A stretch of 64,000 nt of DNA. It comes from Terriglobus sp. TAA 43 (GTDB lineage Bacteria > Acidobacteriota > Terriglobia > Terriglobales > Acidobacteriaceae). The position numbers and the translations under genes were made by a program. Position 1 is the first letter of the stretch; each line of letters starts with the position of its first letter. Positions 45,083 through 61,540 of this stretch are shown one piece after another. The notes beneath the pieces were generated by a model, which saw only the letters and a program-made list of their open reading frames with translations, did no database searches and was not told the DNA's origin. The stretch covers positions 372,001-436,000 of the forward strand of contig NZ_JUGR01000002.1 of NCBI RefSeq assembly GCF_000800015.1, given 5' to 3'.

Positions 45083-45159
45083 GGCCCGGTAGCTCAGTTG
45101 CATAGAGCGGCGCACTCCTAAGGCGAAGGTCGCAGGTTGGACTCCTGCCCGGGTCACCA
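45083..45159 (+). tRNA. tRNA-Arg(CCT), target of integration
   Basis: Seventy-seven bases ending in encoded CCA. The acceptor stem (GGCCCGG with CCGGGTC, one G-T pair), D stem GCTC/GAGC and T stem GCAGG/CCTGC form, and the anticodon loop is CTCCTAA, reading AGG. Two oddities: D-loop position 19 is C and T-loop position 56 is G, the reverse of the nearly invariant G19-C56 pair; and the anticodon-stem pairs 27-43 (G-A) and 31-39 (A-G) do not match. A TACACT -10-like sequence lies at 45066-45071. The 3' 46 bases are supplied by the element and repeated at attR. Confidence 0.88.
45114..45159 (+). repeat. attL: left 46-bp direct repeat
   Basis: Identical over 46 bases to 63175-63220. It covers the tRNA from the anticodon loop to CCA, which is typical for tyrosine-integrase elements that restore the tRNA on insertion. 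Confidence 0.95.
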
Positions 45160-45195
45160 CATTTCAAACGACTTAACTTTGCAAAATTCTCCGTC

Positions 45196-45224
45196 TGGGT
45201 CCAATGTGGGTCCAGATGGGTCCA
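45196..45224. promoter_or_regulatory. Putative integrase arm-type sites, left end
   Basis: TGGGTCCA occurs three times (45196-45203, 45207-45214, 45217-45224) just inside attL. The same octamer recurs near attR (63085-63092), as expected for integrase arm sites. Spacing is 11 and 10 bases. The block ends 5 bases before the int stop codon. Confidence 0.6.
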
Positions 45225-45228
45225 ACAG

Positions 45229-46398
45229 CTACAGCAAGGTGGCTATTCCCTGCTGAGCTGCCAAGCGTTCTGCTGGAACGGATTGGGCATACGTCCCTAA
45301 GGTCATCGTCGGCGAAGCGTGCCGCAGAATCTCTTGGGTGGTACGAATGCTTGCCCCAGAAGATAACAGCAATGAGGCGGTCGTTCGACGGAAAGAGTGC
45401 CAGCCCAGTTCCTTCGTTATGCCAGCCGCCCTGGCTGCCGGTCTAATGCGTTTATAAAGCATCGAGTCCGGCCAATAGGGTTGCTGACCAAACGAATGAG
45501 GGCTTGCAAACACCCAGTCGCCGTCCGCTGTGTAGGCGGTTACAGACTTCCAAGCCAACAGAACGTCTGCGAGTTCGTCCGACAGCGGTATTGGGCGACG
45601 GGAGTACGAGGTCTTCGGCTCTCCAATGACACCATTCACTAGTGAGCGCGTGACATTGATCCGCCGTTTAACGAAATCAATATCACTCCACCTCAGCCCA
45701 AACAGTTCACCACGCCTTAGACCGGTGACTACCGCTGTGAATACCAGTGTGTAACCGGGTTCCGGCTGCCCCTTCAGCTCCTGGAGAAGGTCGCGTACTT
45801 CCGACACCTCCAGAATCTCCGGCTCGCTCACTCTCTTGCTCGATTGCCGTACCAACGCAATCGGGTTGACGTTCGTGAACTCATACCGCATGGCATGTCG
45901 AAACACCATGCTCATGACTGCCCGAATCTTGGATTTCGTCGCCGGTGCCCCTTCAAGACTTCCGAGCCATCGTTCGACCTGCACTGTCTTTACATCAGAG
46001 AGGCGAGACTCACCCCATTTCGGTAGGATGTACCGGTCCAAGTACGACACGTAAGTCTCGCGTGTCCGGGCGGTTCGATTGCCAGCGTGAAGCTCAACTA
46101 GCTTGAAGTGTTCAACCACTTCGGCAAGTGTCATCACGGTTGGCAATGCCCCGTTCGTCGCGTTGAGATCGACCTTGAAAGCGAGAATTGCTTTCTCTGC
46201 GGCGCTCTTGTTCCGAAGCTGGTCGGTAGTGCCAACGATCTTCTTGCGCCTTACAGTCTGACCATTCCCGAAGTCTTCACGCCAGCGAAAGACCCAGACA
46301 TTCGGGCCTTTCTTCCGTTGCTCTATTTTCAATGAACCGTTTTGAAAGCGTTCACGCCTGAGCGCGTATGGAACATTGTTCAGTTGAGTTTGAGTCAT
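45229..46398 (-). CDS. int: Tyrosine site-specific integrase
   Basis: Integrates and excises the element at tRNA-Arg. A three-part phage-type integrase of 389 residues: N-terminal arm-binding region, SAM-like core-binding domain (MTLAEVVEHFKLV to MSMVFRHAMRYEF), and catalytic domain with Arg in VTGLRRGELFGL, Lys near EPKTSYSRRPIP, H-x-x-R in WHSFRRTTASLL, His in EILRHASPTM and nucleophile Tyr in TLGTYAQSV. All catalytic residues are present, so it should be active. It reads toward attL and starts within a 4-base overlap of the xis-like gene. Confidence 0.95.
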   Translation of the reverse strand: MTQTQLNNVPYALRRERFQNGSLKIEQRKKGPNVWVFRWREDFGNGQTVRRKKIVGTTDQLRNKSAAEKAILAFKVDLNATNGALPTVMTLAEVVEHFKLVELHAGNRTARTRETYVSYLDRYILPKWGESRLSDVKTVQVERWLGSLEGAPATKSKIRAVMSMVFRHAMRYEFTNVNPIALVRQSSKRVSEPEILEVSEVRDLLQELKGQPEPGYTLVFTAVVTGLRRGELFGLRWSDIDFVKRRINVTRSLVNGVIGEPKTSYSRRPIPLSDELADVLLAWKSVTAYTADGDWVFASPHSFGQQPYWPDSMLYKRIRPAARAAGITKELGWHSFRRTTASLLLSSGASIRTTQEILRHASPTMTLGTYAQSVPAERLAAQQGIATLL

Positions 46399-46631
46399 GC
46401 AGCCTTCTCCGTTTCGGTTGAGGCAACACGACCTGCGTCATCAGTGTATCCATTTCGCGCTTCCAGCCATGCGCGAATCTTTGATGGAAGGAAGACGATC
46501 TTCCGGGGACTGAGCCGAACGCACGGAATCTTGCTTTCCCGTGCCCACCTTCGGATTGTTTCGGGATTGAGTTGGAGGACCGCTGCTAGTTGCTCGGCAG
46601 TCAGCGGCTTTTCGATTGCTTGATTGTCCAA
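46395..46631 (-). CDS. Excisionase-like helix-turn-helix protein
   Basis: A 78-residue MerR/excisionase-type DNA-binding protein: LTAEQLAAVLQLNPETIRRW followed by RESKIPCVRLSPRKIVFLPS, the usual wing. It probably acts as recombination directionality factor and overlaps the integrase start by 4 bases. The start is a TTG at 46631, as no ATG is available. A short palindrome GTCCAATGTGGAC spans the start region. Confidence 0.8.
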   Translation of the reverse strand: MDNQAIEKPLTAEQLAAVLQLNPETIRRWARESKIPCVRLSPRKIVFLPSKIRAWLEARNGYTDDAGRVASTETEKAA

Positions 46632-46744
46632 TGTGGACCTATGGCGCCTGGGGAGTCACAGGCTTGCGCTCGTAAATTACGGAGTGGGCCTGATGAAGTC
46701 TTGGCCTGCATCACCGTCTCGACTGTGCGACTCTAATCGCTATT

Positions 46745-47719
46745 TCAGGACGAAGTCGAATCTGGTTGCTGGGGTGCGTCAGCCAGAGCGGGCTGCTTGA
46801 TCTCTTCAAGGTCCAAGAGCAGAAATCTCTCGTTGGACCGACCGAAACGGCGCACCTCACGTCTAGAGATGGTGGCTCTCCACCACTTATTGATGGCCTG
46901 TTCTTCACGCAATCTCTTCAGATAAGACTCGCTTAGAGAAGGCGAAACCTTCCCTGTAATTAACTGTCCACCAGCACGGCGGAATTCAAAGCGTTCACCA
47001 TATGGCAGCAGGCCAATGAGCAGTCCGTCTTCGGTGAATTGGTCATCTTCGATGCTGGTGGCCTCAAGGCGAGTGTAGGCCACACCGACGTCCTGAGTGG
47101 TTAGGACCTCGTCCCGGGATTCATCCACAAGCCGGATTGTCGCTTCAGCTTGATGAAGGTTCTTTATCAGGCGTTCTACGGCACGGAACACTCGTGGATG
47201 TAGTTTTTCAATGTCTCGCTCGAATTCATCATCTGTTTGCTTTGCGACGGACACGATCAGCCCGTCTACCGCATCGGCTGCTTTTTTCAAAGCGGTGGGG
47301 AACAGCGGCATCGCCTTGAGGTCAATCTCCTCAATCAAGAAACCGACCGAACCATGCAGCAGTTCCGTGACATGAAGTTTTGCCGAGTCCTGGTCTGGAA
47401 CAGGTCCCCGCGACGCGATATGTCCATCGGTCGATGCCCACATGTTGACGACGGAATCCCTGTAGTCATCAAGAACTTTGGAGGCAAATTCTGCTTGTAT
47501 TCCACGGCTACCGATCACCGGCCTGCCGCCAAAATACAAAGCCGTTGAGGCGAGCGTGTTTCTTTTCTCTCCTAGTTGTGAGAGCTGTTCCTGGAGCTGG
47601 CGCCGACGCGAATTCAAGCTCATTCGACCAAGCGCATCCTCCACCGGAAGAGCGCTGAGCAGATGCTCGATCCCCGAAAGCTCTGCGACAATCCCCGATC
47701 TGTCTAAGAAACTAGCCAT
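46745..47719 (-). CDS. Unknown protein, partner of the NTase-like gene
   Basis: A 324-residue protein I do not recognise. The first 60 residues are helical and likely coiled (RRRQLQEQLSQLGEKRNTLA). A central region has acidic helices (DEFERDIEKLHPRVFRAVER), and the C-terminal third is beta-like (LLIGLLPYGERFEF) then basic (RREVRRFGRSNER). No membrane segment or signal. Its ATG lies 3 bases after the stop of the NTase-like gene, with TAAGGG as binding site, so the two are one unit. Position next to int/xis marks it as cargo. Confidence 0.75.
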   Translation of the reverse strand: MASFLDRSGIVAELSGIEHLLSALPVEDALGRMSLNSRRRQLQEQLSQLGEKRNTLASTALYFGGRPVIGSRGIQAEFASKVLDDYRDSVVNMWASTDGHIASRGPVPDQDSAKLHVTELLHGSVGFLIEEIDLKAMPLFPTALKKAADAVDGLIVSVAKQTDDEFERDIEKLHPRVFRAVERLIKNLHQAEATIRLVDESRDEVLTTQDVGVAYTRLEATSIEDDQFTEDGLLIGLLPYGERFEFRRAGGQLITGKVSPSLSESYLKRLREEQAINKWWRATISRREVRRFGRSNERFLLLDLEEIKQPALADAPQQPDSTSS

Positions 47720-47722
47720 CCC

Positions 47723-48331
47723 TTACCCAAAAGTCGCGAGCAACTGTGATGCTGCCGCGTCATCCTGTTGCGAATCCAGCACAACTTCTAACATGCCTTT
47801 CCACAAGCCGGTGGACCGCTTGTGCGAGAAAAGACCAAACCAGTACGCGGTCTGTTTGATTACGTAGGCCGGTCCCCACATCACATCCACGAAATATGCG
47901 TCCGTTTGGTAAGAGACTTTTGCTTGCTCAGGGTCAAAGGCTGTTGAATGTCCCATCCAGAATGTGTTCCATGCATCATTATCTGCTTGATAGGCAGGTG
48001 GCCTGACTATGAAGCTGACGACGTCAATATCGCCTGGTGATCTTTCTTCCGTATTCTCAATATCTTCTAGGAAACTCCCGTCAAGCCATTGCACGCCAGT
48101 AATGCCTATTCCGATTAGATGTGCCCTGTGCGCCAAAAAACCAGCGAGAATTGTCCTTCTTTCTGAGCTGTGTGAAAAACGCTGTACTACTTCCAAGAGC
48201 GTGACGCGATACGGCGACATGTTTGCTGGAATTGTTGGGTTTCCACCTATATACGGAGGCAGCACACCCGACGATGTGAACGGTGGAATGGTTTCTTCGT
48301 TACCCGCAGCAGGAAGAGGATTCGTACCCAT
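47723..48331 (-). CDS. Nucleotidyltransferase-like protein (DUF6932-like)
   Basis: A 202-residue protein whose opening IPPFTSSGVLPPYIGG, then SHSSERRTILAGFLAHR and WLDGSFLEDIE with RSPGDIDVVSF, matches what I recall as the DUF6932 family. The GSF plus D-x-D spacing is that of the minimal nucleotidyltransferase fold, as in several toxin or antitoxin enzymes. It is followed 3 bases later by the 324-residue gene, so the pair may form a toxin-antitoxin or abortive-infection unit; that is inference. The start at 48331 begins directly before the conserved N-terminus. Confidence 0.72.
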   Translation of the reverse strand: MGTNPLPAAGNEETIPPFTSSGVLPPYIGGNPTIPANMSPYRVTLLEVVQRFSHSSERRTILAGFLAHRAHLIGIGITGVQWLDGSFLEDIENTEERSPGDIDVVSFIVRPPAYQADNDAWNTFWMGHSTAFDPEQAKVSYQTDAYFVDVMWGPAYVIKQTAYWFGLFSHKRSTGLWKGMLEVVLDSQQDDAAASQLLATFG

Positions 48332-48504
48332 AGGCTTTCAAAAGACATCCAATAGCAGTGAATCGATGTTCTGAAACGCTAACACAAGTAGTTGCGTTCG
48401 ATGACTGCCTGGGAGGATCGCGAGGACTCGCGAGGCGACCTCCGCCCTCGTATCCACCCTCTCACTGTGGCGGACCTGTCACGCAAGAGGGACCGCCAAT
48501 CAAG

Positions 48505-48540
48505 AAAGGTCCCCGTCACGGCGTGAAGGCCAAAGACGGG
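48505..48540 (-). terminator. Terminator of the 166-residue membrane protein gene
   Basis: Arms CCCGTC (48512-48517) and GACGGG (48535-48540) with a structured loop. On the minus strand GGGGACCTTTCTTG follows. It is closely related in sequence to the terminator at 49161. Confidence 0.6.
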
Positions 48541-48609
48541 AAAACTGATGTTCGAGGAGAAGCCTCAGGGAAAAGAACGATGAAACTAGATCGTTGATCT
48601 CTGGGATGC

Positions 48610-49110
48610 TCAGCGATGAAGGAAAGGAAGAGCAGGAACAAACATTTTCCACAAGCCAATGCCTAGCGAAGAGACAGCAATGATGAGAACTGTCACGTAC
48701 CGCCATTCGCCGCGCTTGACTCTACTCCACTCCTGCTTGAGAACAACTTGTGACGCAGCCACAACGCCATTCGCAGCTCTTCTCAGCTCCTCATGGGATG
48801 CTGTCGAGACGCCGTTGAGAGCCGCCATCTTTGTTACACAACCAAGCAGCTGCTGACTATTCTTTTCCCTAGGGTTCAATCGGAGGCGGATGCGAGCGAC
48901 CGCCTCATTACATACCTTCACTGCGTCGGCTTCATCTTGAATCTCGTCCTCTGCACGATGGAGCGTATTTGCAATGAGGGTTGAGAGGTCTTGCCGCAGG
49001 CTATCGATCCATTGCTGTCTAAATTCGGAGGTTTTGCCTTCTTTGGAGACGATGAGACCGATGATCGCTACGCTCGCTGCGATGACGGAACTTAGCACTG
49101 GATCGGACAT
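48610..49110 (-). CDS. Two-helix membrane protein, unknown
   Basis: Possible product of 166 residues from the ATG at 49110. A first helix (SSVIAASVAIIGLIVSKEG) is followed by KTSEFRQQWIDSLRQDLSTL, a cytoplasmic helical region, and a second helix near the end (YVTVLIIAVSSLGIGLWKMF). The EFRQxWIDxLR segment is one I associate with widespread uncharacterised membrane proteins. The frame is open to 49155. It has its own terminator; a role in defence is possible but unsupported. Confidence 0.7.
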   Translation of the reverse strand: MSDPVLSSVIAASVAIIGLIVSKEGKTSEFRQQWIDSLRQDLSTLIANTLHRAEDEIQDEADAVKVCNEAVARIRLRLNPREKNSQQLLGCVTKMAALNGVSTASHEELRRAANGVVAASQVVLKQEWSRVKRGEWRYVTVLIIAVSSLGIGLWKMFVPALPFLHR

Positions 49111-49160
49111 AACAATCACTATAAAAGCTCTGGTCAAGTGAGTACTGCCGCGCAAACAAG

Positions 49161-49198
49161 AAAGGTTCCCCGTACGGGCATGCGAGCCTGAACGGGGA
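49161..49198 (-). terminator. Terminator of the 168-residue membrane protein gene
   Basis: Arms TCCCCGT (49167-49173) and ACGGGGA (49192-49198) with an inner GGC/GCC pairing; a CCTTTCTTG tail follows on the minus strand. Sequence related to the terminator at 48505. Confidence 0.65.
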
Positions 49199-49211
49199 CG
49201 TTCGTAAGCAA

Positions 49212-49718
49212 TCAGAGCTTATGATCGAGCATGAGTTTCTGAATCTGCTTCACTTGTTTGGTGGGAAGAGACCAAGACCTTCCCTGCGAATCTTTAACCA
49301 CTACTCTGCTGGTGTTCTTTCTGAACACATCGAAATTCTGTAGATAAAACAGCGATGTTTCGCTTTCCTGAAGAGTCACAGGATTGTAAAAGGTCTCACT
49401 CGGAGGGTAGTCGAATTTGCTGGTCCGAATGGCCGCCCATCCCGTTATCGTCACGGGCCTACGTCCAGCATTGGCGAAGTGAATCTCGAGCTTCCACTCC
49501 GAACCAGTCTCGGAATTGGGATAAAACTCATCAAGCGCATAAGAGTTCTGAATGACTTGCCCGGACCTTTCTTGTTTATCAACCAGAATCTTCGCGCTCA
49601 ATACCACCCTAGGCGAGTCTTTCTTGTAGCTGTAGACGGTCCATGCAAAAACAGCAGTGGAAACAACCGCAGCATATCCGGCAATCGCCAGTGCAATCGG
49701 GTCACGTTCGATGGGCAT
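49212..49718 (-). CDS. Single-pass membrane protein, unknown
   Basis: A 168-residue protein: one N-terminal helix (IAGYAAVVSTAVFAWTVYSY) and a soluble beta-rich domain (EWKLEIHFANAGRRPVTITG) resembling an Ig-like or transthyretin-like sandwich. No family recognised. It is transcribed alone with its own terminator at 49161. Confidence 0.65.
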   Translation of the reverse strand: MPIERDPIALAIAGYAAVVSTAVFAWTVYSYKKDSPRVVLSAKILVDKQERSGQVIQNSYALDEFYPNSETGSEWKLEIHFANAGRRPVTITGWAAIRTSKFDYPPSETFYNPVTLQESETSLFYLQNFDVFRKNTSRVVVKDSQGRSWSLPTKQVKQIQKLMLDHKL

Positions 49719-49730
49719 TGGTGAATCATA

Positions 49731-49883
49731 ATGCGTGACACCAGTCTTGAGCCTATGCCGTCGTCCATATACAGTGTTTCAAACTTCACCGGGACCATTG
49801 GGACCAGCAACGCCCCGGTTACTGACGCCTACGTGTTCGAGTCGCAGGCGGCCCGCTCCGTTAGAGGAGGGAGCGCGATGTAA
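49731..49883 (+). CDS. Possible 50-residue small ORF
   Basis: Starts 12 bases from the divergent 49718 gene and runs 50 codons (MRDTSLEPMPSSIYSVSNFT onward). Composition is protein-like and GGTGA lies about 7 bases upstream. No homologue is known to me; it may be chance. Confidence 0.25.
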   Translation: MRDTSLEPMPSSIYSVSNFTGTIGTSNAPVTDAYVFESQAARSVRGGSAM

Positions 49884-49960
49884 TGTTAACCAGACGCAGC
49901 GGCGGGTTCTCCACTGTGCAGTCATCACATGGTCGGTTGAAGCGTGTTTGTGTGAGGGGG

Positions 49961-51040
49961 CTATGCTCGGTAGCCACGCCCGTTCGGGCCTGGACCGATG
50001 CGCGGCAACCCCATTTCGCCACGTGCCACCATCTGCATCGCCTTCTTGAACTCCTCAGAACTCATGCGTGCAACTTCGCGTTCGGTAAAAGTTCGCGGTT
50101 CGCCCGTCTGAAGGTCGAAGCCTTCGTATGTCGGTGCCTTAGGCTTGTCTGGTTCCTTCGCTGGTGCGATGGTGAGATTTGCATCCGGGCGCTTTGTATC
50201 GCTTGGCGTGTCGTTTGCAATCACGTCCGTATTCGCTTGCTCCGGCGCGTCGAATGGGATGCCACAAGCCAGCATTCGTTTGTACACACGGTTGAGTTGT
50301 TCAGTGGTGAACATCAAGACGGAATGCTTGCTGAAGTAGTTGTTGAGGATTTGCAAGTTATGGTCGTTGACCACAAACTCAGGGTGGCTATCGGCGAAGC
50401 CTTTCAGCATCGCGTAGTTCCATTCAGTCGCACCCTCGACTGTTAAGTGCAGGCCAACGAGTTCTGGATCGTGCCAGAAGTCTAAGTCTTTGACATTGGG
50501 GTCTAGAAGAACCTTGCGCTCCAATGCCGCAATCTGGCGAGAGGTCTCGTTGATCTTCTGCGTCAGTTCCCGCACGGGTTTTTCGCGGGTCTCACGCTCC
50601 GTTCGGGCTTCAGCTTCCAGCTCCTCGCGGCGTTGACGAATAGCGATGCGGTCGCGCTCCGTAAGCACAACGTGCTCGGCAGCAGGGCGTCGTTTGGTGG
50701 GCAGTACGTAGCCCTCGACCTCTGCTTCCATGCGTCGCAACGACGCTGCCTGGACATCGGCGATGCGCTGTTTTTCGCGTTCCTCTGCCTGCTTACGCTG
50801 CTCTTCCTCTAGGTCGCGACCGCGTTGACGCTGTTGGACTTTGCCACAGCCCGATGCAAGGCAACGAGCGGCGCCACTGCGAAGACGTGAGTGAGGTGCC
50901 GTCGATGTACTTTGGCATCGAGTGCATCTCACCTCGTAGGTCGGCTCTGGACGGCGAGCAACAAGGCGGACGATATCGAGCGTGTTGCATTGCTGGCCGG
51001 TCATGTCTGCGAGACCTTCCATCACACGGGTTGTTGGCAT
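49961..51040 (-). CDS. Coiled-coil protein with N-terminal zinc-ribbon-like motif
   Basis: A 359-residue unknown protein. Near the N-terminus VRCTRCQS and CLASGC form a possible C-x2-C...C-x4-C zinc site. Residues about 75-180 are strongly charged and form a coiled coil (DLEEEQRKQAEEREKQR). The C-terminal part has a compact segment (SHPEFVVNDHNLQILNNYF) and a Gly-rich end. It overlaps the preceding gene by 19 bases from the ATG at 51040; an ATG at 51004 with GGAAGG is also possible. Last gene of the minus-strand cluster. Confidence 0.7.
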   Translation of the reverse strand: MPTTRVMEGLADMTGQQCNTLDIVRLVARRPEPTYEVRCTRCQSTSTAPHSRLRSGAARCLASGCGKVQQRQRGRDLEEEQRKQAEEREKQRIADVQAASLRRMEAEVEGYVLPTKRRPAAEHVVLTERDRIAIRQRREELEAEARTERETREKPVRELTQKINETSRQIAALERKVLLDPNVKDLDFWHDPELVGLHLTVEGATEWNYAMLKGFADSHPEFVVNDHNLQILNNYFSKHSVLMFTTEQLNRVYKRMLACGIPFDAPEQANTDVIANDTPSDTKRPDANLTIAPAKEPDKPKAPTYEGFDLQTGEPRTFTEREVARMSSEEFKKAMQMVARGEMGLPRIGPGPNGRGYRA

Positions 51041-51324
51041 GATTCATTTCTCCACTGCTTGCCATCTTGAATGGCAGCCGATAGGGTTTGGCGAGTCTTA
51101 ATGAACTCGTCCAACAACACCTTCGGGTCCTCTATTGCGAAGCCTAGGCCACCGTCGTCGCGATGGTAGGTCCGGGCAATTTCTGCACACCGGCCCTCCA
51201 CATCCTCAATCAAGAACGTTGCGCCTTTGGGCTGTTCGATGAAGGTTGCGATGTGGACACCAGGGCCATAGACATAGCGCATGAGAGCACAGACGCCCTG
51301 ATTTCGGGTTCTGTACACATTCAT
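51022..51324 (-). CDS. Small hypothetical protein
   Basis: A 100-residue protein from the ATG at 51324, which overlaps the upstream stop by 4 bases (the frame is open to 51405). Its pattern MRYVYGPGVHIATFIEQPKG and CAEIARTYHRDDGGLGFAIE suggests a small alpha/beta fold. Unrecognised. Translational coupling to its neighbours supports it as real. Confidence 0.65.
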   Translation of the reverse strand: MNVYRTRNQGVCALMRYVYGPGVHIATFIEQPKGATFLIEDVEGRCAEIARTYHRDDGGLGFAIEDPKVLLDEFIKTRQTLSAAIQDGKQWRNESCQQPV

Positions 51325-51737
51325 CGCGTCGTCACCGCGCAGTCGCTTCCTCGACGCCAATAGCGCCAAGGTGCGAGATTGCGGGCGCCGTAAATCCTGC
51401 CGCATTTCCAGATGACTTCTTCCCTGAGTTCTGGCGATACCGGCTTATCCAATGCAAGTGAGAACCACGTTACTTGCAGATCGAGTCGATCCTTTAGGGC
51501 GTATTCGGTGGCCTTCTCGATGTCGATCTTGTATCCGATGAGATCGAGAGTTAGCTTTTGTGAGGCAGTCACCGGGTTTGGATCGAACGATTGTGCGATC
51601 ACCGGGTGCAAGCTCTTAATGCGGACATACTCGCGGATGACCGCGTTGGTGATGTCTTCGTAATGAGCGAAACGTTCACGCTTGGTGAACGCTTCAGACT
51701 CGGCCTGTGCCGCATCTGTAAGTTGTGAGTGTTTCAA
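51321..51737 (-). CDS. Hypothetical protein of the overlapping cluster
   Basis: A 138-residue, mostly helical protein (FAHYEDITNAVIREYVRIKS; ELREEVIWKCGRIYGARN) with no recognised domain. GGAG precedes the ATG at 51737. It is coupled to the next gene by a 4-base overlap. A small possibly broken frame lies just upstream. Confidence 0.65.
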   Translation of the reverse strand: MKHSQLTDAAQAESEAFTKRERFAHYEDITNAVIREYVRIKSLHPVIAQSFDPNPVTASQKLTLDLIGYKIDIEKATEYALKDRLDLQVTWFSLALDKPVSPELREEVIWKCGRIYGARNLAPWRYWRRGSDCAVTTR

Positions 51738-51757
51738 TTCTCCTCTGATTAGATTTG

Positions 51758-51908
51758 CTACTGCTCAGCAACAGGGAAAATCGAGAACGCACTGCTGCGA
51801 CCGTCTTTGCGGCCATCGATCTTGGCAGTGCGTAGCAGGATGATTTGAAGCTGCCCGGACCAGAGACGTGAGCGTATTTTTACGCTCGGCCATCGGCGGC
51901 TCTGTCAT
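51758..51908 (-). pseudogene. Possible frameshifted small gene
   Basis: An ATG at 51908 opens MTEPPMAERKNTLTSL, and a second frame, offset by one base, continues with GQLQIILLRTAKIDGRKDGR and ends at a TAG at 51758. The total of 151 bases is one more than a whole number of codons, so one extra base would explain the break. The downstream frame alone has no start codon. Could be a remnant or an assembly error. Confidence 0.35.
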
Positions 51909-51981
51909 GGTCGCTGCTACCGGGAAGTGTGGCAGTTAAAGCGGGCTCACGTCCGATGAATCCATTGTGTTGCATAGCCTG

Positions 51982-52002
51982 CCTACTCATCTAGAGAACG
52001 AC
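51982..52002 (-). promoter_or_regulatory. 21-bp box, copy 1
   Basis: Matches the box at 55643-55663 at 19 of 21 bases (minus strand GTCGTTCTCTAGATGAGTAGG). It lies just after the 328-residue gene and before the 51908/51737 genes, so it may carry a promoter or a regulator site of the element. Confidence 0.5.
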
Positions 52003-52007
52003 CAGAT

Positions 52008-52994
52008 TTAGGCAGCGATCTTCATTTCGGTCGAAACCCAGTGGGGTTCCAAATACCCCAGCGGCACGTCATGCGCTTCGAGCCTCAGAGTGCGTTTGCC
52101 ATAGACCTCGCGTTGTCCTATGTCGTTGGGACCGAGTCTAATTGGGCGGCCTTTCGAGATGACTTGATCGCGTCCCGCTTTGACTTTCATCTGGAAGACT
52201 TGTGCCTGTTCGGGGACCAAGGATTCGACTGGCTTTCCGATTTCCCATTTGCGCACCCTTGCCAGAGTCGCCTTCTTCCAGGCGTGGGCAGCAAGCTCAC
52301 CACGGTGTGCGAGTTGTCTTGCAAGAATCGTGTCATCGGTAGTGAATTCATGGCTGTTGTAAATGAAGTAGAGCATCACGTCGAATGCCAGATTGTTTGC
52401 GACAATTTGCAAGCCGATTCGGGTTTCCAGATCACGGCATTGATCTAAGATTTTGTTAATACTCCCATAGACAGCACGTTCCACTTTCGCATATCGCTGC
52501 CAAACCCCAACGGTCTTACGCGCTATGTCGATTGCCTCACCTGTTGCCCACGCGACGATGGCTGTGGAGTCTACCTCGCCCTTATACTTGGGCAGACGGT
52601 TGAGGACGAGAGCACATATACGTGCTGTGTCGTTGAAGAGAACACCATCTGCGGAAAGAATCGCTATCACCTGAGGCAATACTTCCGTGAGCATGACACT
52701 GAGCTGGGCCTGTAACTTCGCCCACGCGATTGCTTCGGCATTGAACCGTTGGACATACTTGATTCCCTTGGGATATCTATAATCGCGAAGCTGATCGAAC
52801 AACTGTCCCTCAATGCGCTCGGCATCGGTCAGCGTAGCTCCAGGCACGGCCATGACGGCGTTCCTGAGTTTTTGTGATTTCTTGAGCGCGTCGTAACGGT
52901 TCCTGGCCCGCCTCAAGTTTTTGTCGACCTTGCTCTCGTTTGCCTGGGTTTGTGTGGGCCTAGTCGCTGAGAGTTCGTTATTGATGTGGATCAT
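52008..52994 (-). CDS. Hypothetical protein of the replication cluster
   Basis: A 328-residue unknown protein, largely helical and without membrane segments. The first 45 residues are basic (KVDKNLRRARNRYDALKKSQ); the middle has hydrophobic helices (AQLSVMLTEVLPQVIAILSA) and the end is basic (GRPIRLGPNDIGQREVYGKR). It is translationally coupled to the 86-residue gene upstream (4-base overlap), downstream of the RepA-like ATPase. A role in element replication is inferred from position. Confidence 0.7.
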   Translation of the reverse strand: MIHINNELSATRPTQTQANESKVDKNLRRARNRYDALKKSQKLRNAVMAVPGATLTDAERIEGQLFDQLRDYRYPKGIKYVQRFNAEAIAWAKLQAQLSVMLTEVLPQVIAILSADGVLFNDTARICALVLNRLPKYKGEVDSTAIVAWATGEAIDIARKTVGVWQRYAKVERAVYGSINKILDQCRDLETRIGLQIVANNLAFDVMLYFIYNSHEFTTDDTILARQLAHRGELAAHAWKKATLARVRKWEIGKPVESLVPEQAQVFQMKVKAGRDQVISKGRPIRLGPNDIGQREVYGKRTLRLEAHDVPLGYLEPHWVSTEMKIAA

Positions 52995-53251
52995 GCAACC
53001 TCTTTCATCTGCGCCGTGGCACTGTCGCCGCGTGCGACCGACGAGACGTATTTGAACGCCTCCAACGGCTCGAATCTTGGTGGGAGACGATTGGCAGCGA
53101 ATCGCCGCGCGGTTCTCATGATTGCGCGTTCGACACTCTCAGGCGGATAAGCGCTCCAACGTGCCGTGTCCTGAATCGTAGGTTCTGTCACATGCGGCAA
53201 TGCAATGCGCCACAGCGTGATAAAGCGCTCGTGTTTTTCAAGCAGCGTCAT
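52991..53251 (-). CDS. Small hypothetical protein coupled to the RepA-like gene
   Basis: An 86-residue helical protein (TLLEKHERFITLWRIALPHV; SVERAIMRTARRFAANRL). The ATG at 53251 has GGAGG 5 bases upstream, which selects it over the ATG at 53263; it overlaps the ATPase 3' end by 14 bases. A possible replication accessory factor; family unknown. Confidence 0.65.
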   Translation of the reverse strand: MTLLEKHERFITLWRIALPHVTEPTIQDTARWSAYPPESVERAIMRTARRFAANRLPPRFEPLEAFKYVSSVARGDSATAQMKEVA

Positions 53252-54335
53252 CAAGACCTCCATCTGTCGGGGAATACTTATTGAGGAAGTCGTTCGTTTG
53301 AAGAACGGACTCGTTGAGATGAAGCACGAGTGGGTCAGTCTTGGACTTTTTCGTTCCGGTCGTGGTGATAACGCCCTGCGTGATAAGGCCCGCGATTGCT
53401 TCCAACTTCAGTTCAGTCTTACCTTTGACTTCCGCGAGCACGTCCGCTTGACGGGCACTCTGGTCCCAGCGTTGTTGCAGGAAGGAAACTATGCGCTCTG
53501 CGTGAGTCACTTCACGTTGGCGCTGGGCCTTATCACCCTGGGTCTTTTGCCATGCTTCAAACGGCGTTCCCAGGCTGTAGTCGGCAACGACGTTCGCTCC
53601 GGCGCTCTCAACAATCATGGTGTCCAAGATCGTCGGTGGAATGGAACGTCCAATCCGAGTCTCAGAAGCAATGATGCGCTGACCTCGGTCGTCATACAGG
53701 GCAACGGTAGTATCAGGCTCACCACGCAGTGCAGTGCTTCCTAACAATGAATCGAATGGGTCATCAGTCTTGAGCTTCTTCGCGTGAGCGAGACCTTGAA
53801 TGTGAAGGTGAGGATGCTTGCGAGCGAGAGCACTGACTTTCTCGACGCCATGCATCACTTTGCTGTAGTCGTTGAGGTCATCGGACCTGAGCAACTTCGC
53901 CAACGTGTCAACTATCACCAATTTGATCGCGGGGTTCTTCGTGACGGCATCGTCGATAGCAGCGATGGACTCATCTATGTGAGGCGACAACTTGGTGACG
54001 ATGTGAATGTGAGCATCGGTTCTGGTGTCATAACCCAAGGCACCAAGACAGTTGTCAACGTGTGCAAGAGGGTCTTCCAGAGAGATGAGCATAACTTCGC
54101 CTTGTTTCGTTTCACGTCCGAGAAAGGGTTTTCCCTTCAGGACACATACCGCTTCGTAACGAGACAAAGAACTTTTACCGCGTTTTGGTTTACCGGCAAG
54201 AACGCTGAATGCCCCGGACGGAAGCAATCCGTCAATGAGGTACGGGATGGGTTTAGGTTGGCCGTTAGTGAAGGTGCTGAAGGCAGATTGCATGGTGAGA
54301 CTGAAAGGTGTACTGGGTACGGCTTCATGATTCAT
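53238..54335 (-). CDS. RepA/DnaB-like RecA-fold ATPase
   Basis: Hexameric-helicase-type ATPase of 365 residues, of the AAA_25 (RepA-like) group found in plasmids and integrative elements. Walker A is LAGKPKRGKSSLS (residues 47-58), Walker B is KLVIVDTLAKLL, and a later motif is LLGSTALRGEPDTTVALYDD. The C-terminal 70 residues look like a winged helix (ERIVSFLQQRWDQSARQADV). It probably unwinds the element's origin. An unusual purine/pyrimidine hairpin lies in its upstream region. Confidence 0.85.
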   Translation of the reverse strand: MNHEAVPSTPFSLTMQSAFSTFTNGQPKPIPYLIDGLLPSGAFSVLAGKPKRGKSSLSRYEAVCVLKGKPFLGRETKQGEVMLISLEDPLAHVDNCLGALGYDTRTDAHIHIVTKLSPHIDESIAAIDDAVTKNPAIKLVIVDTLAKLLRSDDLNDYSKVMHGVEKVSALARKHPHLHIQGLAHAKKLKTDDPFDSLLGSTALRGEPDTTVALYDDRGQRIIASETRIGRSIPPTILDTMIVESAGANVVADYSLGTPFEAWQKTQGDKAQRQREVTHAERIVSFLQQRWDQSARQADVLAEVKGKTELKLEAIAGLITQGVITTTGTKKSKTDPLVLHLNESVLQTNDFLNKYSPTDGGLDDAA

Positions 54336-54424
54336 ACGTGTTTACGTCCTTATCTGTTATCTGCCCGTCGTTCTGAAGACCTGAACAACGGACTGACGCA
54401 CACTCGCGTTCCCCCACAAACGAA

Positions 54425-54516
54425 GGGAAAGAGGGAAAGGGAAAGACATACATAGAAAGAGAGAGAGAGAGAGAACCATTCTCCTATTGCTTTGTCTCTT
54501 TCCCTTTCCCTTTCCC
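54425..54516. repeat. GGGAAA/TTTCCC inverted repeat with (GA)n loop
   Basis: The left arm is GGGAAA-GA-GGGAAA-GGGAAA-GA (54425-54446); the right arm (54495-54516) is the complement of three GGGAAA units plus GAGA. They pair over about 20 bp with a 2-base bulge. The loop contains a GA-repeat tract (54456-54474). It lies 90-180 bases upstream of the RepA-like gene. Confidence 0.7.
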
Positions 54517-54663
54517 ACGCACGTGAGGGGGTGTGGACGCGCAACCTTATGTCTATCCGTCAGCGAAACAGAACGACGGATGGGAACGAAAAGGCGTGAC
54601 GAACCAGTAAGTATTAACTGGTATCTACAGTTCCTCTGTTTGGGTGCTCCAGATGGAGCGTGC

Positions 54664-54690
54664 ATAAAAAACCCGCCATAGGAAGGCGGG
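54664..54690 (-). terminator. Rho-independent terminator
   Basis: Stem CCCGCC/GGCGGG (54672-54677 with 54685-54690), followed on the minus strand by TTTTTT. It ends transcripts from the 54817-55628 genes, so the RepA-like cluster needs its own promoter between 54336 and 54663. Confidence 0.85.
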
Positions 54691-54701
54691 GCAGAGTCAG
54701 G

Positions 54702-54722
54702 GAGCCTCACTGCTTGAGGCTC
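54702..54722 (-). terminator. Second hairpin before the terminator
   Basis: A perfect 8-bp stem GAGCCTCA/TGAGGCTC (54702-54709 with 54715-54722) with a CTGCT loop, just upstream of the main terminator. Confidence 0.5.
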
Positions 54723-54816
54723 TACCCGTCTCACTAACTAACTACATCATATCACAGGTTGGCCGAAAAGTCAAGCCGAATCTTCAACTTACACCTAACG
54801 GCTGAGGAAATCTTTT

Positions 54817-55326
54817 CTACAAACTCCAGACGTCCTGAAGACTCTTTGCTGGTCGGTCGACCCGACGTTTGCCCTGACTCGTCCATTTGTGCGCGTCAGC
54901 CGTTAGCACAGTCTCTAACAAACGCTCCGGCGTGTAGTGGTTGACCGCCCACCTACGAATAAAGCTGTAGGTTTTCAGAAGCCATCTACAGGCTGCCAAA
55001 CGTTCTAAACGCTCGGTGCTGTCGTCGACCACAATGGCGAGAACTGCACGCAATCTGCGGTCCTCATGTACCTTCGTTCGTGCCGCAGTCAATGACTTGC
55101 CATTCACAATGCTCGCGGCAGGGCCGGTGTTGAAGAGATTTTTTATGGCGCCGTCAAGCCACGGTTGAGTATGCGCGACCACTTCATCATCATCGTCACT
55201 CGGCATCTGTACGGCATCGACGAGTTCCGTGATGAGCAATTCTGCTGCTACCTCGCGTTCCGTTCCTGGACGAGCGTCGTCGCGAACGATTTCGCGTAGC
55301 TGGTCAATGTTGCTGGGGTTGTTCAT
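54817..55326 (-). CDS. Hypothetical protein of the element
   Basis: A 169-residue unknown protein, acidic in the first half (MPSDDDDEVVAHTQPWLDGA) and basic in the second (HKWTSQGKRRVDRPAKSL). It overlaps the upstream gene by 4 bases and is followed by the terminator at 54664. It has no obvious domain. Confidence 0.65.
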   Translation of the reverse strand: MNNPSNIDQLREIVRDDARPGTEREVAAELLITELVDAVQMPSDDDDEVVAHTQPWLDGAIKNLFNTGPAASIVNGKSLTAARTKVHEDRRLRAVLAIVVDDSTERLERLAACRWLLKTYSFIRRWAVNHYTPERLLETVLTADAHKWTSQGKRRVDRPAKSLQDVWSL

Positions 55327-55628
55327 TCGTCTCCTTCGTTCGTGCTGCCAGCGACACGCGCAAGGAACGCCGCAACGGTTTCGCGCGACTCTTCGTGTCC
55401 GCCTAGCGTGTCGGGTGATGCTTGGTCGTCCTCGTCCCGTTTATCTTCTGACCGGCGCAGCGAGCCCTTACGCAATTCATTCTTGTCGTGCCGCTCGAAG
55501 ACACCGAGTAGCAATTCAACGGCACGTAGCCGCCGCTGCTGGGGTGCCTTCTCGTCCGCGATTATCTGCTTAAGGCAGGAAACCACTTCTCGGTATCGAC
55601 GCCTGTTCAATCGTGCTCTTACTTGCAT
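55323..55628 (-). CDS. Small charged hypothetical protein
   Basis: A 101-residue protein: N-terminal helices (RRRYREVVSCLKQIIADEKA) followed by an acidic and basic tail (RRSEDKRDEDDQASPD). First gene of its two-gene unit; the 21-bp box ends 14 bases before its start codon. Unrecognised. It could be a regulator or a DNA-binding packaging-type protein; no evidence decides. Confidence 0.6.
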   Translation of the reverse strand: MQVRARLNRRRYREVVSCLKQIIADEKAPQQRRLRAVELLLGVFERHDKNELRKGSLRRSEDKRDEDDQASPDTLGGHEESRETVAAFLARVAGSTNEGDE

Positions 55629-55642
55629 CTGATTGTTGTTCT

Positions 55643-55663
55643 CCTACACAACTAGAGAACGAC
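55643..55663 (-). promoter_or_regulatory. 21-bp box, copy 2
   Basis: Minus strand GTCGTTCTCTAGTTGTGTAGG, 19 of 21 bases like the copy at 51982-52002, immediately upstream of the 55628 start. Conservation at two operon fronts suggests a shared promoter or operator. Confidence 0.5.
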
Positions 55664-56149
55664 GAAAAATGGAACCATAAGGGGGCCTTATGTGGCCGTA
55701 GCCATGTACCCACAATGGGCATTTATCTGTACAGGAGTGTCTTTCTAGAGGTGAAGTGTGCAAAGAGGCTCGGAATCATAGGGTCCCCTTTTGTGAATGC
55801 CTATCAGATACGCGGGACCACGTAGGGACGTTACGGACAGGGGATGGTTGGATGTTGGCCGCACCAGCTCGAACGATGCAGTCGATACCCCGGCGGACTC
55901 CCCCGGCCACCCCTTCGGGAAGCATGCTTCTGGGACTCCTACGCCTCCCAGGGACGTTAGTGTCTCCGTGCCGATATTGGCACGCGGAGAACATAGACCT
56001 CTCCCTGAATGCTCGGACGATTGGATAAGCGAGATGTGCCACAACGAAAGTAATCCTGAAGGCCGCGATTTCAGGCTTGCACTGCCTGGACGCTTGCTTT
56101 ACATTTCTATCTGCGCTCGTTGATTGAAACGTAAAGGACGATCTGAACG
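55664..56149. other. Intergenic region between divergent units
   Basis: About 490 bases between the 55628 unit (minus) and the serine recombinase (plus). Short frames on both strands show no protein-like pattern or binding sites. No repressor gene is present. A short inverted repeat CTCCGTGCCGATATTGGCACGCGGAG at 55965-55990 is the only structure noted. Confidence 0.4.
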
Positions 56150-56839
56150 ATGGCATCAGGCAAGTTTGTCTCCTATCTGAGAGTCAGCACAGTGAAGCAA
56201 GGCGATAGTGGTTTGGGCCTGGAGGCGCAACGCAGCGCCGTGACGAGCTATCTCAATGGCGGCAAATGGTCACTATTGAAGGAGTCGTTGGAAGTAGAGA
56301 GCGGCAAGCGAAACGACCGCCCTGCTCTCGCAGAGGCGCTGAAGCTCTGCAAGCGCCACAAGGCAACCCTCATCATCGCGAAACTGGACAGGCTCGCGAG
56401 AAACGTCGCATTCATCGCGAACCTCATGGAGAGCGGCGTTGAGTTCATCGCCGTGGATATGCCACAAGCAACGAAGTTCACAATTCACATCATGGCCGCA
56501 GTTGCCGAACAAGAAGCAGAGGCCATCTCCAAGCGCACCAAGGCAGCACTACAAGCCGCGAAGGAACGCGGCACAAGGCTAGGAGGCAGGCGCGTGTCTG
56601 TGGCCAAATTCGCGAAGATCGCAGTGGAGGGCCGCAAGATCGCGGCGGCAGTGCGGAGTAGGAACGCGGCATCCTACCGCGATGAAATCCTCCCCATCAT
56701 CGGAGAGATTCAAACATCCGGCATCACGACTCTCAGCGGCATCGCGTCGGCGCTGAATGAACGCGGCGAGACAACCAGACGAGGCGGTCAATGGTCTGCT
56801 GTCCAGGTGATGCGCGTGCTGAATCCGGCCACCGCGTAA
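56150..56839 (+). CDS. Serine recombinase (resolvase/invertase family)
   Basis: A 229-residue small serine recombinase. The catalytic serine is S13 in SYLRVSTVKQG; arginines in AKLDRLARN and the helix QEAEAISKRTKAAL are conserved. The C-terminal part (SGITTLSGIASALNERGETT) resembles the DNA-binding Recombinase segment. AAAGGA lies 11 bases upstream of the ATG. As a second recombinase beside the tyrosine integrase it may resolve multimers or invert DNA. Followed by a good terminator. Confidence 0.92.
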   Translation: MASGKFVSYLRVSTVKQGDSGLGLEAQRSAVTSYLNGGKWSLLKESLEVESGKRNDRPALAEALKLCKRHKATLIIAKLDRLARNVAFIANLMESGVEFIAVDMPQATKFTIHIMAAVAEQEAEAISKRTKAALQAAKERGTRLGGRRVSVAKFAKIAVEGRKIAAAVRSRNAASYRDEILPIIGEIQTSGITTLSGIASALNERGETTRRGGQWSAVQVMRVLNPATA

Positions 56840-56865
56840 CCTCCTCCTCACCATCCACACAATCT

Positions 56866-56888
56866 GCCCCCGCCATTCGGGGGCTTTT
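56866..56888 (+). terminator. Terminator of the serine recombinase gene
   Basis: A perfect 7-bp GC stem (56866-56872 with 56878-56884), loop CCATT, followed by TTTT. Confidence 0.9.
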
Positions 56889-57055
56889 CATTGCCTGTTC
56901 GCGGGTAGATGTCTGATGGCGTGAGGGTTGAGTGGCGTAAGACGGAATTGGGAAACGGTTTCCTGTTCGTTGCGTGTGGGAGGGGCGGAGTGTGGGGTAT
57001 GGCCTAGCCGATAGCCCGTGAGCCTGTATTATGGGTCCGAATCCTTAATCAGATC

Positions 57056-57616
57056 ATGCAAACCTGGAAATGTACCTTGATACGCGGTGCAGGCTTCGGC
57101 GCTGGCTTCGCTGTCGCAGCAGCGATAGTCTTCGTCTCAGTCTTTTGGTGGAATGAAAGACCGAAGCCGTGGTCGTCGAAGGCAATCACTTCAAAGATAG
57201 GCGAACTGACGATGCAACGACGGGGCGAGGAATTGCACCTAGACTTCGAGTATGCATTGAAGAACAATACCAGGTACGACTACCGCCTACCTTCGGCGCC
57301 GACTGGCAACCTCATGCGCGTCATTAAGGAAACTGGCTCAGTAGCAAAAGTCGAGAATGTTATGTGGCCGGATGTCATGGTCCCGGCCTATCAAACTGTG
57401 ACTGTCAGGTTCGACGTGACATACCCATTCTCTGAATACAACACTACCGCCGCAGAACTCGACGGATCGTCTGCCAGTGGCGAGGGCATCAGCAAAGGCC
57501 TGACGGACTTCGCGGGCAGGCGTCTCAAATCTTCCAAAGATGGTTTCGTCTTCCTCGACGAAGTGAACAGATACCGGATTGAGCTTCCTTCAAATTGGCA
57601 GGCGGCGGCAAAGTGA
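57056..57616 (+). CDS. Single-pass membrane protein, unknown
   Basis: A 186-residue protein with one N-terminal helix (GAGFAVAAAIVFVSVFWWNE) and a soluble domain of mixed strands (GEELHLDFEYALKNNTRYDY; VPAYQTVTVRFDVTYPFSEY). The layout is like that of the 49212 gene: helix plus beta domain. No function known. Stands alone. Confidence 0.65.
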   Translation: MQTWKCTLIRGAGFGAGFAVAAAIVFVSVFWWNERPKPWSSKAITSKIGELTMQRRGEELHLDFEYALKNNTRYDYRLPSAPTGNLMRVIKETGSVAKVENVMWPDVMVPAYQTVTVRFDVTYPFSEYNTTAAELDGSSASGEGISKGLTDFAGRRLKSSKDGFVFLDEVNRYRIELPSNWQAAAK

Positions 57617-57708
57617 TTCATGTTACCCCTGTACAAATCTACGAGCGTTAGGACTACCACGATACGTAGGGCAGTGGCGAGGGGTGTAATGCCGATTTCG
57701 GCCCGGGA

Positions 57709-57888
57709 CTACTTCTTGTTTGAATCTCGGGTGAGCGCCTTCCATTGAAGTAGAGCATAGAGCAAGTATGCCAAGTGCAGTCCCCAAACTGCGGAGTAAA
57801 CCAGCACCAAGTTTCTATGTCCGAGAGGCGTGTCGATAGATGGGTCGAATGGGAAAAGTCGCACGAGTATTAATGCCTTAGTCACCAT
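57709..57888 (-). CDS. CcmD-like small membrane protein
   Basis: A 59-residue protein with one helix (LVLVYSAVWGLHLAYLLYAL) and a basic C-terminus, matching the CcmD layout. It overlaps the CcmC-like gene by 11 bases, and AAGGG precedes its ATG at 57888. In haem export CcmD helps CcmC load haem onto CcmE; that assignment is from context and shape, not strong sequence identity. Confidence 0.6.
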   Translation of the reverse strand: MVTKALILVRLFPFDPSIDTPLGHRNLVLVYSAVWGLHLAYLLYALLQWKALTRDSNKK

Positions 57889-58612
57889 ATGCCATCCCTT
57901 CTGTAGAACTGATCGAACGCAGCGCCCTCTCATGTTCCTGCTTCTGTCGTCTGTACTCCGTGGCATAACGGAAGGAGACAATCAACGCTCCCCATGCGAC
58001 CCACGCGAGAACATTGAACCACACAGCGCTCTGCATCGTTGGAGCGACGCCAGAACCTTCTTCTCCACCAAAGACCGGCGCAGGGTGCTGTGTACGCCAC
58101 CACCGCGTAGACATATACACGATTGGGATGTCCACAAAACCGAAGATAGCTAACACTGCGCAGATGACTCCGCGCCCTGACGAAGCAGTCGTGCGCCTAA
58201 TCATCAAATAGCTCACGTAAATCAACCAGAGCATTAGTGTCGTCGTCAGCCTCGCGTCCCACGCCCACCAAATGCCCCACGCTACTCGTCCCCAGAGTGA
58301 ACCAGTGACCATTCCCAAAGTGCAATAGAGTACCCCCATCTCGGCAGTCGCGAGAGCGAGGGAGTCAGCTTTCATAGCGAGCAGATCGTCTTTTGAACGC
58401 AGATAGAGATAGGTCACGGACGCCAGAAGATTGAGAGGAAGAAACACACCCGCGCCTATCCAGTTGGGAAAGTGGTAGTAGAAGGCCCGAATCATGTTTC
58501 CTTGGTCCGCATCTGGAGGGGATACCCACAGAGCAAGCACCAAGCCATACCCTAGAAGGCACAAGCTAACCACAGTCAATATGACTCGCAACACCTTGCC
58601 CGACGCACTCAC
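57878..58612 (-). CDS. CcmC-type haem exporter protein
   Basis: Six-helix membrane protein of 244 residues of the CcmC/CcsA cytochrome c assembly family. The diagnostic tryptophan-rich motif is WGIWWAWDARLTTTL, with flanking conserved histidine candidates (IRAFYYHFPNW and near TQHPAPV). It starts at a GTG (58612) directly after a TGA of an upstream frame. CcmE, CcmF and CcmH genes are not present on the element, so it may supplement or replace a host component. Confidence 0.88.
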   Translation of the reverse strand: MSASGKVLRVILTVVSLCLLGYGLVLALWVSPPDADQGNMIRAFYYHFPNWIGAGVFLPLNLLASVTYLYLRSKDDLLAMKADSLALATAEMGVLYCTLGMVTGSLWGRVAWGIWWAWDARLTTTLMLWLIYVSYLMIRRTTASSGRGVICAVLAIFGFVDIPIVYMSTRWWRTQHPAPVFGGEEGSGVAPTMQSAVWFNVLAWVAWGALIVSFRYATEYRRQKQEHERALRSISSTEGMAYGD

Positions 58613-58850
58613 TCAGAACCTCCGATTCGGTAATACCATCATCTCACCAGGCGTGGCGACGGCCTCCAGCGTATCGGATACGCGGACGAGGGAAACGGCG
58701 ATCTTTGCCAAAAACGAACTCGGCCCAGTGCGGCGCCAAATAGTTGATGAGATGGCGGCTATCGTTACCAAATTATTTTCATTTTTGCGCTTCGGAAAAG
58801 TGGTGCTAATTTGCCACCTGTAGTCGATTCGTTGATGCCGAGGTTCAATG

Positions 58851-59156
58851 ATGTCACTTACTATTCCCCCTGCCTTGCTCACTCGCACAGACCGCGAGAT
58901 CGACGCAGAGTTGTTCCGGCTCTACAGCCTGCTACGTCGCGCTCCATTACACGATGTCTATGGAGAACCAGTTGCCGATGCGATACGTGCTCAGATAGTC
59001 GTGTTACGTCTGCGGCTCACTTCGGAAGAAGCCGCAGAACGATACGAAGCTGACGATGAGTTTGTCCAGAGCGAAGCGCTGAACGCAGCGGACTGGCTCA
59101 GTGATGACGGAGAATCGCCGTCGGCTGGATTGGGAGCGTCGGCATCGAATAGCTAG
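58851..59156 (+). CDS. Small acidic hypothetical protein
   Basis: A 101-residue protein, helical (TREIDAELFRLYSLLRR-type segment around DREIDAELFRLYSLL) with an acidic C-terminus. GAGG lies 7 bases before the ATG at 58851 (an ATG at 58848 is also usable). Not recognised. Confidence 0.6.
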   Translation: MSLTIPPALLTRTDREIDAELFRLYSLLRRAPLHDVYGEPVADAIRAQIVVLRLRLTSEEAAERYEADDEFVQSEALNAADWLSDDGESPSAGLGASASNS

Positions 59157-59258
59157 GGGGCAGCGGACACTCGCTGCTTCAGGGAACTGAATGATTCTGA
59201 TGCCATGCGCGGCGCGGAGTTGAGGAATCTCAATGGCATAGTAGGGCGGGAGATTCCT

Positions 59259-60443: not shown

Positions 60444-60499
60444 GATGCCTCTGAAAACTAGCCCAGGCGTGCTGGGTTTTGATTGAGTGGAAGACGAGT

Positions 60500-61216
60500 T
60501 TACTCCTCGATGTTCGGGAGCATCGCCGTCGTCGTTGTATGGAAGGCCATCGGCCCCTTGCGGCGCGTATCCGATACGGTTGGGCCGCCGGGCACCATCT
60601 CCATACCTTCAGACTCAAATGGTCGAAGTAGGTCCGCCGGTGGGCGTTCCGTCTCGTCACGCGATAACCAACGGTCATAGTCGCGCCGGTGAAGGATGAC
60701 CGGCATTCGTGGGTGTATCTGCGCCATCATCTCGTTCGGTTCAGTGGTCACGATGGCAAAGGACTGTAGCCAGTCGCCACGGCTGTCCCGCCAGGCATCC
60801 CAGATGCCTGCGAAGGCGAACATGGAGGCGTCGGAGAGCGTCAACGTGAAGGGCTTGCCTTGAGCGGTGCCGATCTTGTCCCACTCGTAGAAAGCCGACG
60901 CGGGAACCAAGCATCGGCGCTTCTTGAACGCCTCTCGCCATGAGCCTGTGGTCGTGATGCTTCCAGCGCGGGCGTTGAACATATTCCGGCCCTTGAGGGA
61001 TTCGAGCATCTTGGTATGGAACGGCACCATCCCCCACCGCATCATCACCATCTCACGCTGGCCGTCGTCACGGTTGTCACGGACGATTGGTTGCGTACTA
61101 TACGGGGTGACATTCAGGTCTTCGGGGGGCATGGCGATGTCTTCGATGCCGTGCTGGACATGGAATTCCTCAGCGATGCGCTGCTTGTCACCCTTGCGTT
61201 TGTAGCGTCCGCACAT
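60500..61216 (-). CDS. SRAP-domain protein (HMCES/YedK family)
   Basis: Forms a covalent link to abasic sites in single-stranded DNA and shields them. The catalytic Cys2 is present (MCGRYKRKGD), with Asn in NMFNARAGS, Glu in ASAFYEWD and His in IHPRMPVILHR. Length is 238 residues. On a mobile element it could protect replicating single-stranded DNA. It is divergent from the 61291 gene. Confidence 0.93.
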   Translation of the reverse strand: MCGRYKRKGDKQRIAEEFHVQHGIEDIAMPPEDLNVTPYSTQPIVRDNRDDGQREMVMMRWGMVPFHTKMLESLKGRNMFNARAGSITTTGSWREAFKKRRCLVPASAFYEWDKIGTAQGKPFTLTLSDASMFAFAGIWDAWRDSRGDWLQSFAIVTTEPNEMMAQIHPRMPVILHRRDYDRWLSRDETERPPADLLRPFESEGMEMVPGGPTVSDTRRKGPMAFHTTTTAMLPNIEE

Positions 61217-61290
61217 GCCCCATTCCTTCCCTATCGATTATCCACATCAACGAGCTTTATATTCTCCTTTTCTTCGCCTATATTAGCAAC

Positions 61291-61503: not shown

Positions 61504-61540
61504 GTGGAAGCAGCCTCACAGTGCTGTTAGCCTACTTCCG

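Follow-up and report, generated by a model that had tools for sequence, protein, structure and literature searches.

Why should a tRNA gene at the end of an integrated element carry, in reverse, a base pair that is taught as near-invariant? The window (the whole 64-kb stretch of Terriglobus DNA that was analysed) contains a single tRNA according to ARAGORN, a tRNA-Arg with anticodon CCT, and its elbow has C19-G56 in place of G19-C56. The element may have brought the exchange, the gene may be decaying or specialised, or it may be a working tRNA that has inherited a compensated pair. These readings can be weighed against the gene itself, its copies in congeners, and arginine tRNAs of other bacteria and of viral contigs.

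The tRNA-Arg(CCU) gene and its elbow

The gene lies at 45083..45159 on the plus strand, encodes its CCA, and is recognised by both ARAGORN and Rfam. Covariance scoring, proposed as a check in the first-pass annotation, gives 52.5 bits against Rfam RF00005, whose gathering score is 29, and the sequence has the cloverleaf and the CCT anticodon (45117-45119, plus strand) of a tRNA. The arginine identity rule, as set out in PMC9976931, is A20, C35, U36 and A/G73, and A20, C35, U36 and A73 are all present. In the D-loop G18, C19 and A20 fall at 45100, 45101 and 45102, and in the T-loop T54, T55, G56, G57 and A58 occupy 45137-45141, with G56 at 45139 (all plus strand); G15 and C48 are also in place. 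The exchanged pair described by the first-pass annotation is present, read directly from the sequence: canonical G19-C56 is absent and the two positions are Watson-Crick complementary as C-G. Its further claim that the elbow contact is preserved also holds up, in that C19-G56 would stay a Watson-Crick pair and that G-C, C-G and U-A covary at these positions elsewhere; 19 and 56 would thereby pair in three dimensions and still close the elbow. The two mismatches it reported are likewise found in the anticodon stem-loop (45110..45126, plus strand), where G27 (45110) faces A43 (45126) and A31 (45114) faces G39 (45122). Both are unpaired, and in place of a five-pair stem only the three inner pairs between them, 28-42, 29-41 and 30-40, are intact.

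Genome-wide there are 47 matches to RF00005, of which 46 are distinct ARAGORN tRNAs and the 47th, at 37.5 bits, is not accepted by ARAGORN. C56 is present in 45 of the 46, and G56 in tRNA-Arg(CCU) only. No second CCU tRNA gene occurs in the ARAGORN set of the genome, which also encodes a canonical tRNA-Arg(UCU). Compared with a canonical bacterial tRNA-Arg(CCU), the gene, the only one of its kind found in this genome, shares the cloverleaf, the anticodon, A20, A73, G18, T54-T55, R57, A58 and G15-C48, but it has C19-G56 rather than G19-C56 and is unpaired at 27-43 and 31-39.

The staphylococcal type of tRNA-Gly is non-proteinogenic and has an altered elbow in which the 18-19 and 54-56 contacts are lost. 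This type was considered for tRNA-Arg(CCU) and rejected, as G18 and T55 are kept and 19 and 56 are complementary. The altered elbows of mitochondrial tRNAs and tRNA-Pyl described in PMC7609411 also depart from the G19-C56 rule, but they lose or replace loop contacts, whereas here the contact is predicted to be kept as a Watson-Crick pair. Engineered G19C/C56G tRNAs (PMC3602588, PMC10412605) have the same double change; they are laboratory mutants of other tRNAs, whereas the change seen here is natural, inherited and recurrent. Aminoacylation is retained in mitochondrial tRNA-Ser with the engineered C19-G56 swap (PMC10412605), and it is given as kept or restored in G19C/C56G tRNAs in PMC3602588, which cites earlier work. 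A single C56G change is described as blocking or lowering cleavage by plant protein-only RNase P, although that case concerns one change rather than a swapped pair and a different type of enzyme. Normal function would be expected of the swapped tRNA-Arg(CCU).

The integrated element and the Terriglobus congeners

The 46 bp from A31 through the end of the CCA (attL core, 45114..45159, plus strand) are repeated exactly at 63175..63220 (attR core, plus strand), where the 5' half of the tRNA is missing. An element of about 18 kb lies between the two copies (45160..63174), and a gene for a tyrosine integrase (45229..46398, minus strand; PF00589, E 1.9e-25) adjoins attL. An att repeat in the 3' end of a tRNA together with an adjacent integrase identifies a tRNA-targeted integrative element. 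Set beside known genomic islands at tRNA 3' ends, with which it shares the tRNA-3' repeat (here 46 bp) and the PF00589 integrase by attL, it has nothing unusual; the att site merely includes G56. The first-pass annotation was exact in placing G56 in the element-supplied half and in attR, and C19 in the chromosomal half: G56 is in both att copies only because the repeat spans A31 to the gene end, and C19 falls outside it.

The element also encodes a serine resolvase (56150-56839; PF00239) alongside the tyrosine integrase, an SRAP-family protein (60500-61216; PF02586, E 8.9e-62) and, at its attR end, an Abi_alpha-family protein (62198-62998; PF14337) with a weak match to PADLOC PDC-S47. A DUF6932 gene (47723-48331) also matches the PADLOC candidate PDC-M63A.

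The position of G56 inside the att repeat and of C19 outside it would suit an origin of the swap through the element, integration having supplied a T-half with G56 and host base 19 having changed later to match, and the site has been used repeatedly, elements or remnants being found there in the window's genome (G000), G005, G009 and G002. The first-pass annotation had linked the swap to integration and proposed a comparison with relatives lacking the element. A full-length tRNA-Arg(CCU) copy is found in 16 of 18 Terriglobus congeners, the other two being draft assemblies (G013 and G016) with no full match for the gene, and both C19 and G56 are identical in all 16 copies. A sequencing error at these two positions, which the annotation had also raised, is therefore very unlikely. 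In a search at E <= 0.001, which short remnants could escape and in which several assemblies were drafts, a second copy of the att part was undetected in 13 of the 16 congeners with the full gene and C19-G56; besides the window's genome, only G005, G009 and G002 have partial second copies. The comparison thus went against the annotation: relatives with no detected second att copy have the same C19-G56 pair, and the link between swap and integration is not supported. As the cause of the swap the element is highly improbable, given these 13 congeners, the presence of the swap throughout an entire clade, and the occurrence of Brevundimonas and U19-A56 cases elsewhere. An ancient integration, later lost, is a possible source.

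We consider it likely that the gene encodes a working AGG-reading tRNA-Arg in which 19-56 was exchanged from G-C to C-G by compensation in an ancestor of its clade and then inherited, the same exchange having taken place elsewhere, mostly in tRNA-Arg. The element would merely use the 3' part of the tRNA as its attachment site, carrying the same 46 bp.

Could drift in a dispensable gene, a redundant minor tRNA under relaxed selection, account for the exchanged pair together with the weakened anticodon stem? AGG codons are scarce in the window outside the element, with 37 among the 12,668 codons of 27 mechanically called open reading frames (18 of 2,425 within the element). In addition, tRNA-Arg(UCU) should read AGG too, and both the unpaired 27-43 and 31-39 and an RF00005 score that is low for this genome would fit such a history. 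Drift is nevertheless unlikely, as the gene is nearly unchanged across the genus, with 100% identity in six of the 16 congeners, as stem changes are compensated (G107, discussed below, compared with genus g50), and as mismatched 19-56 pairs number zero among the matched CCU genes. Within the congeners 27-43 stays G/A, with one G/U, and 31-39 is A/G or A/C.

Distribution of exchanged 19-56 pairs

All patterns used in the wider searches require GCTCAG, AGAGC, GTC and GTT/R57/A58, and the counts concern tRNAs within that frame. A CCT pattern left free at 56 matched 100 of 150 Acidobacteriaceae genomes with 102 matches, 13 of which have G56 when read by eye. These belong to genera g1, g50, g80 and g83 and to one member of g82, G107; the two other g82 genomes, G157 and G180, have C56. 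C19-G56 is thus common to a clade of four sampled genera plus one g82 member. In a tree of ArgRS from 38 genomes the swapped genomes form one clade (100/97), except for G107 and two rows of Blastocatellia type, and the swap of the window is therefore to be read as one old event. The compensating substitutions from G-C to C-G would have occurred in the ancestor of a Terriglobus/Edaphobacter/Granulicella-type clade and C19-G56 would have been passed down within it.

The swapped tRNA of G107 (locus L249) has 6-7 changes from those of the swapped clade and 21 from that of its canonical congener G157, and it looks more like a case of transfer than a fresh swap. Matches to a 414-aa gene of locus L258 lie close to the tRNA at 12 further swapped loci, including G107 and the upstream flank of the window, and at one of five canonical loci (G180); replacement at the same locus is weakly suggested. 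The neighbouring genes in G107 lie on the opposite side of the tRNA compared with G180.

With any anticodon allowed, the C19-G56 pattern occurs in 35 of 396 Acidobacteriota (29 in family f1, five in f30 and one in f19) and the U19-A56 pattern in three, all of f30. Every one is CCT, so that all 38 alternative pairs in the phylum lie in tRNA-Arg(CCU). The Blastocatellia-type family f30 has three states: G-C (G378, G473, G523), U-A (G222, G294, G363) and C-G (G210, G256, G266, G371, G545). No mismatched pair was seen among its matched genes, seven of the 12 f30 genomes in the CCT search being without a match.

Outside the phylum, a CCT pattern free at both 19 and 56 matched 136 of 200 Caulobacterales genomes, with 122 G-C, 13 C-G and one U-A (by eye) and no mismatched pair among the 136. 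The Brevundimonas C-G tRNA differs at seven positions from the canonical tRNA of G575 and at 14-15 from acidobacterial C-G tRNAs; being nearer to the former, it points to an origin in situ within Caulobacterales. C19-G56 was found in three of 299 Pseudomonadota (all CCT, all Caulobacterales, one being the chosen centre of the sample) and in one of 146 Cyanobacteria, the sample centre itself, in a UCU arginine tRNA. Contigs assigned to other phyla (Rhodanobacteraceae, Verrucomicrobia and Bordetella MAGs) with acidobacterial or Brevundimonas versions may be binning errors and were not counted as origins.

In a scan of GTDB for C19-G56, tRNA-Arg accounts for 116 of 120 among the matches listed (112 CCT, one of them truncated and read by pattern, one CCG and three TCT, with four others for Ala, Thr, Gly and Lys) and, among the same matches, for 26 of 30 distinct cores. 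Three loci of Symploca type (L065, L106, L141) are labelled Pyl(CTA) by ARAGORN; the anticodon reads TCT (Arg), with C19-G56. The CCT tRNAs of chromosomal loci, a set partly chosen for the swap, comprise 145 C-G, 44 G-C and one U-A, with no mismatched pair among them; one further gene, whose position 19 was not assigned automatically, has a D-loop G-G-A by eye. In the open-access literature searched, neither C19-G56 nor U19-A56 was found described as a natural pair of a bacterial tRNA-Arg. Within the searched patterns the swap is, to judge from sequence comparison, an inherited and recurrent exchange of apparently compensatory kind, concentrated on arginine tRNAs.

Among viral contigs C19-G56 was matched in 26, U19-A56 in 76, G19/G56 in two, G19/A56 in 19, C19/C56 in 46, U19/C56 in 60 and the canonical pair in more than 120. 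Arginine tRNAs make up 10 of 19 distinct cores with C19-G56 and 37 of 54 with U19-A56; among mismatched cores the share is 0/2 for G19/G56, 2/6 for G19/A56, 0/42 for C19/C56 and 1/50 for U19/C56, or three of 100 overall. Arginine thus accounts for 47 of 73 alternative-pair cores compared with 27 of 97 canonical ones (p 2.4e-6), the canonical control being 80 of the more than 120 matching contigs and this and the following p-values counting related sequences as independent. Five of the 10 arginine cores with C19-G56 also occur, identically, in chromosomes, and these may be genes of the host that border a prophage. Arginine still accounts for 42 of 68 alternative-pair cores when these are removed (p 2.5e-5), and for 29 of 54 compared with 22 of 84 canonical cores after clustering (p 0.002). 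Without the host-identical cores C19-G56 alone gives five of 14, with no clear enrichment, and the viral enrichment therefore rests on U19-A56. The 92 viral cores in which C19 or U19 faces C56 include one for arginine, and 78 have a G next to 19, suggesting that this G might pair with C56 instead, as a shifted elbow pair.

Arginine identity and the elbow

Position 20 offers a candidate reason for the concentration on arginine, A20 being the main arginine determinant for E. coli ArgRS (PMC9976931, PMC8975779). After a change at base 19, many tRNAs of other identities could have a G at the next position and pair it with C56; since bacterial ArgRS needs A20, the pair in tRNA-Arg would be restorable only through a change at 56. 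The A20 requirement is perhaps the cause of the bias, and it leaves unaccounted that the chromosomal cases are nearly all CCU rather than other arginine anticodons.

ArgRS itself differs between the two groups of Acidobacteriaceae. The residue after G-D/E in its D-loop-binding motif is Y in 32 and F in seven of 39 canonical genomes, and I in nine, L in 10, V in two, M in two, F in two and Y in four of 29 swapped ones. Strict co-change of ArgRS and tRNA looked perfect in the first nine Acidobacteriota and weakened over 75 more genomes. The Blastocatellia-type residue is L or V whatever the state of the tRNA (the C-G set here being six genomes, with G266 and G560 the same genome, Pyrinomonas), and that of Caulobacterales is F in all states (four genomes). 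The difference is suggestive, a lead that would mainly concern one clade, with exceptions.

A specialised elbow, in which the flipped pair alters recognition by ArgRS, by a tRNA-modifying enzyme, by a nuclease that attacks tRNAs or in non-ribosomal amino-acid transfer and was selected for that effect, would account for the concentration on tRNA-Arg, the enrichment of U19-A56 in viral contigs and the contrast between I/L/V/M in 23 of 29 swapped and Y/F in 39 of 39 canonical Acidobacteriaceae. That contrast is confounded by descent, the swapped genomes other than G107 being one clade in the ArgRS tree; Y is kept in four swapped genomes, and neither the Blastocatellia-type L/V nor the F of the four Caulobacterales follows the tRNA. 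Selection for altered recognition is accordingly improbable as the source of the swap.

The inherited, compensated pair favoured here can be placed in a wider and more tentative picture, which we think plausible enough to entertain without leaning towards it. Positions 19 and 56 of arginine tRNAs would form an evolvable lock: with A20 fixed by ArgRS, AGR-reading tRNA-Arg would repeatedly switch between G-C, C-G and U-A, both in bacterial genes and in those carried by phages, perhaps accompanied by matching changes in the D-loop-binding motif of ArgRS or as an escape from host factors that read the elbow. G19-C56 provides a flat surface read by the ribosomal L1 stalk, RNase P and T-box RNAs, as described in PMC4810234. 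Its repeated natural exchange within one amino-acid family would mean that the shape of the elbow is conserved rather than the identity of its bases, and the natural pairs G107/G157 and Brevundimonas/G575 would be ready material for work on elbow readers and on why arginine tRNAs may be freer than others.
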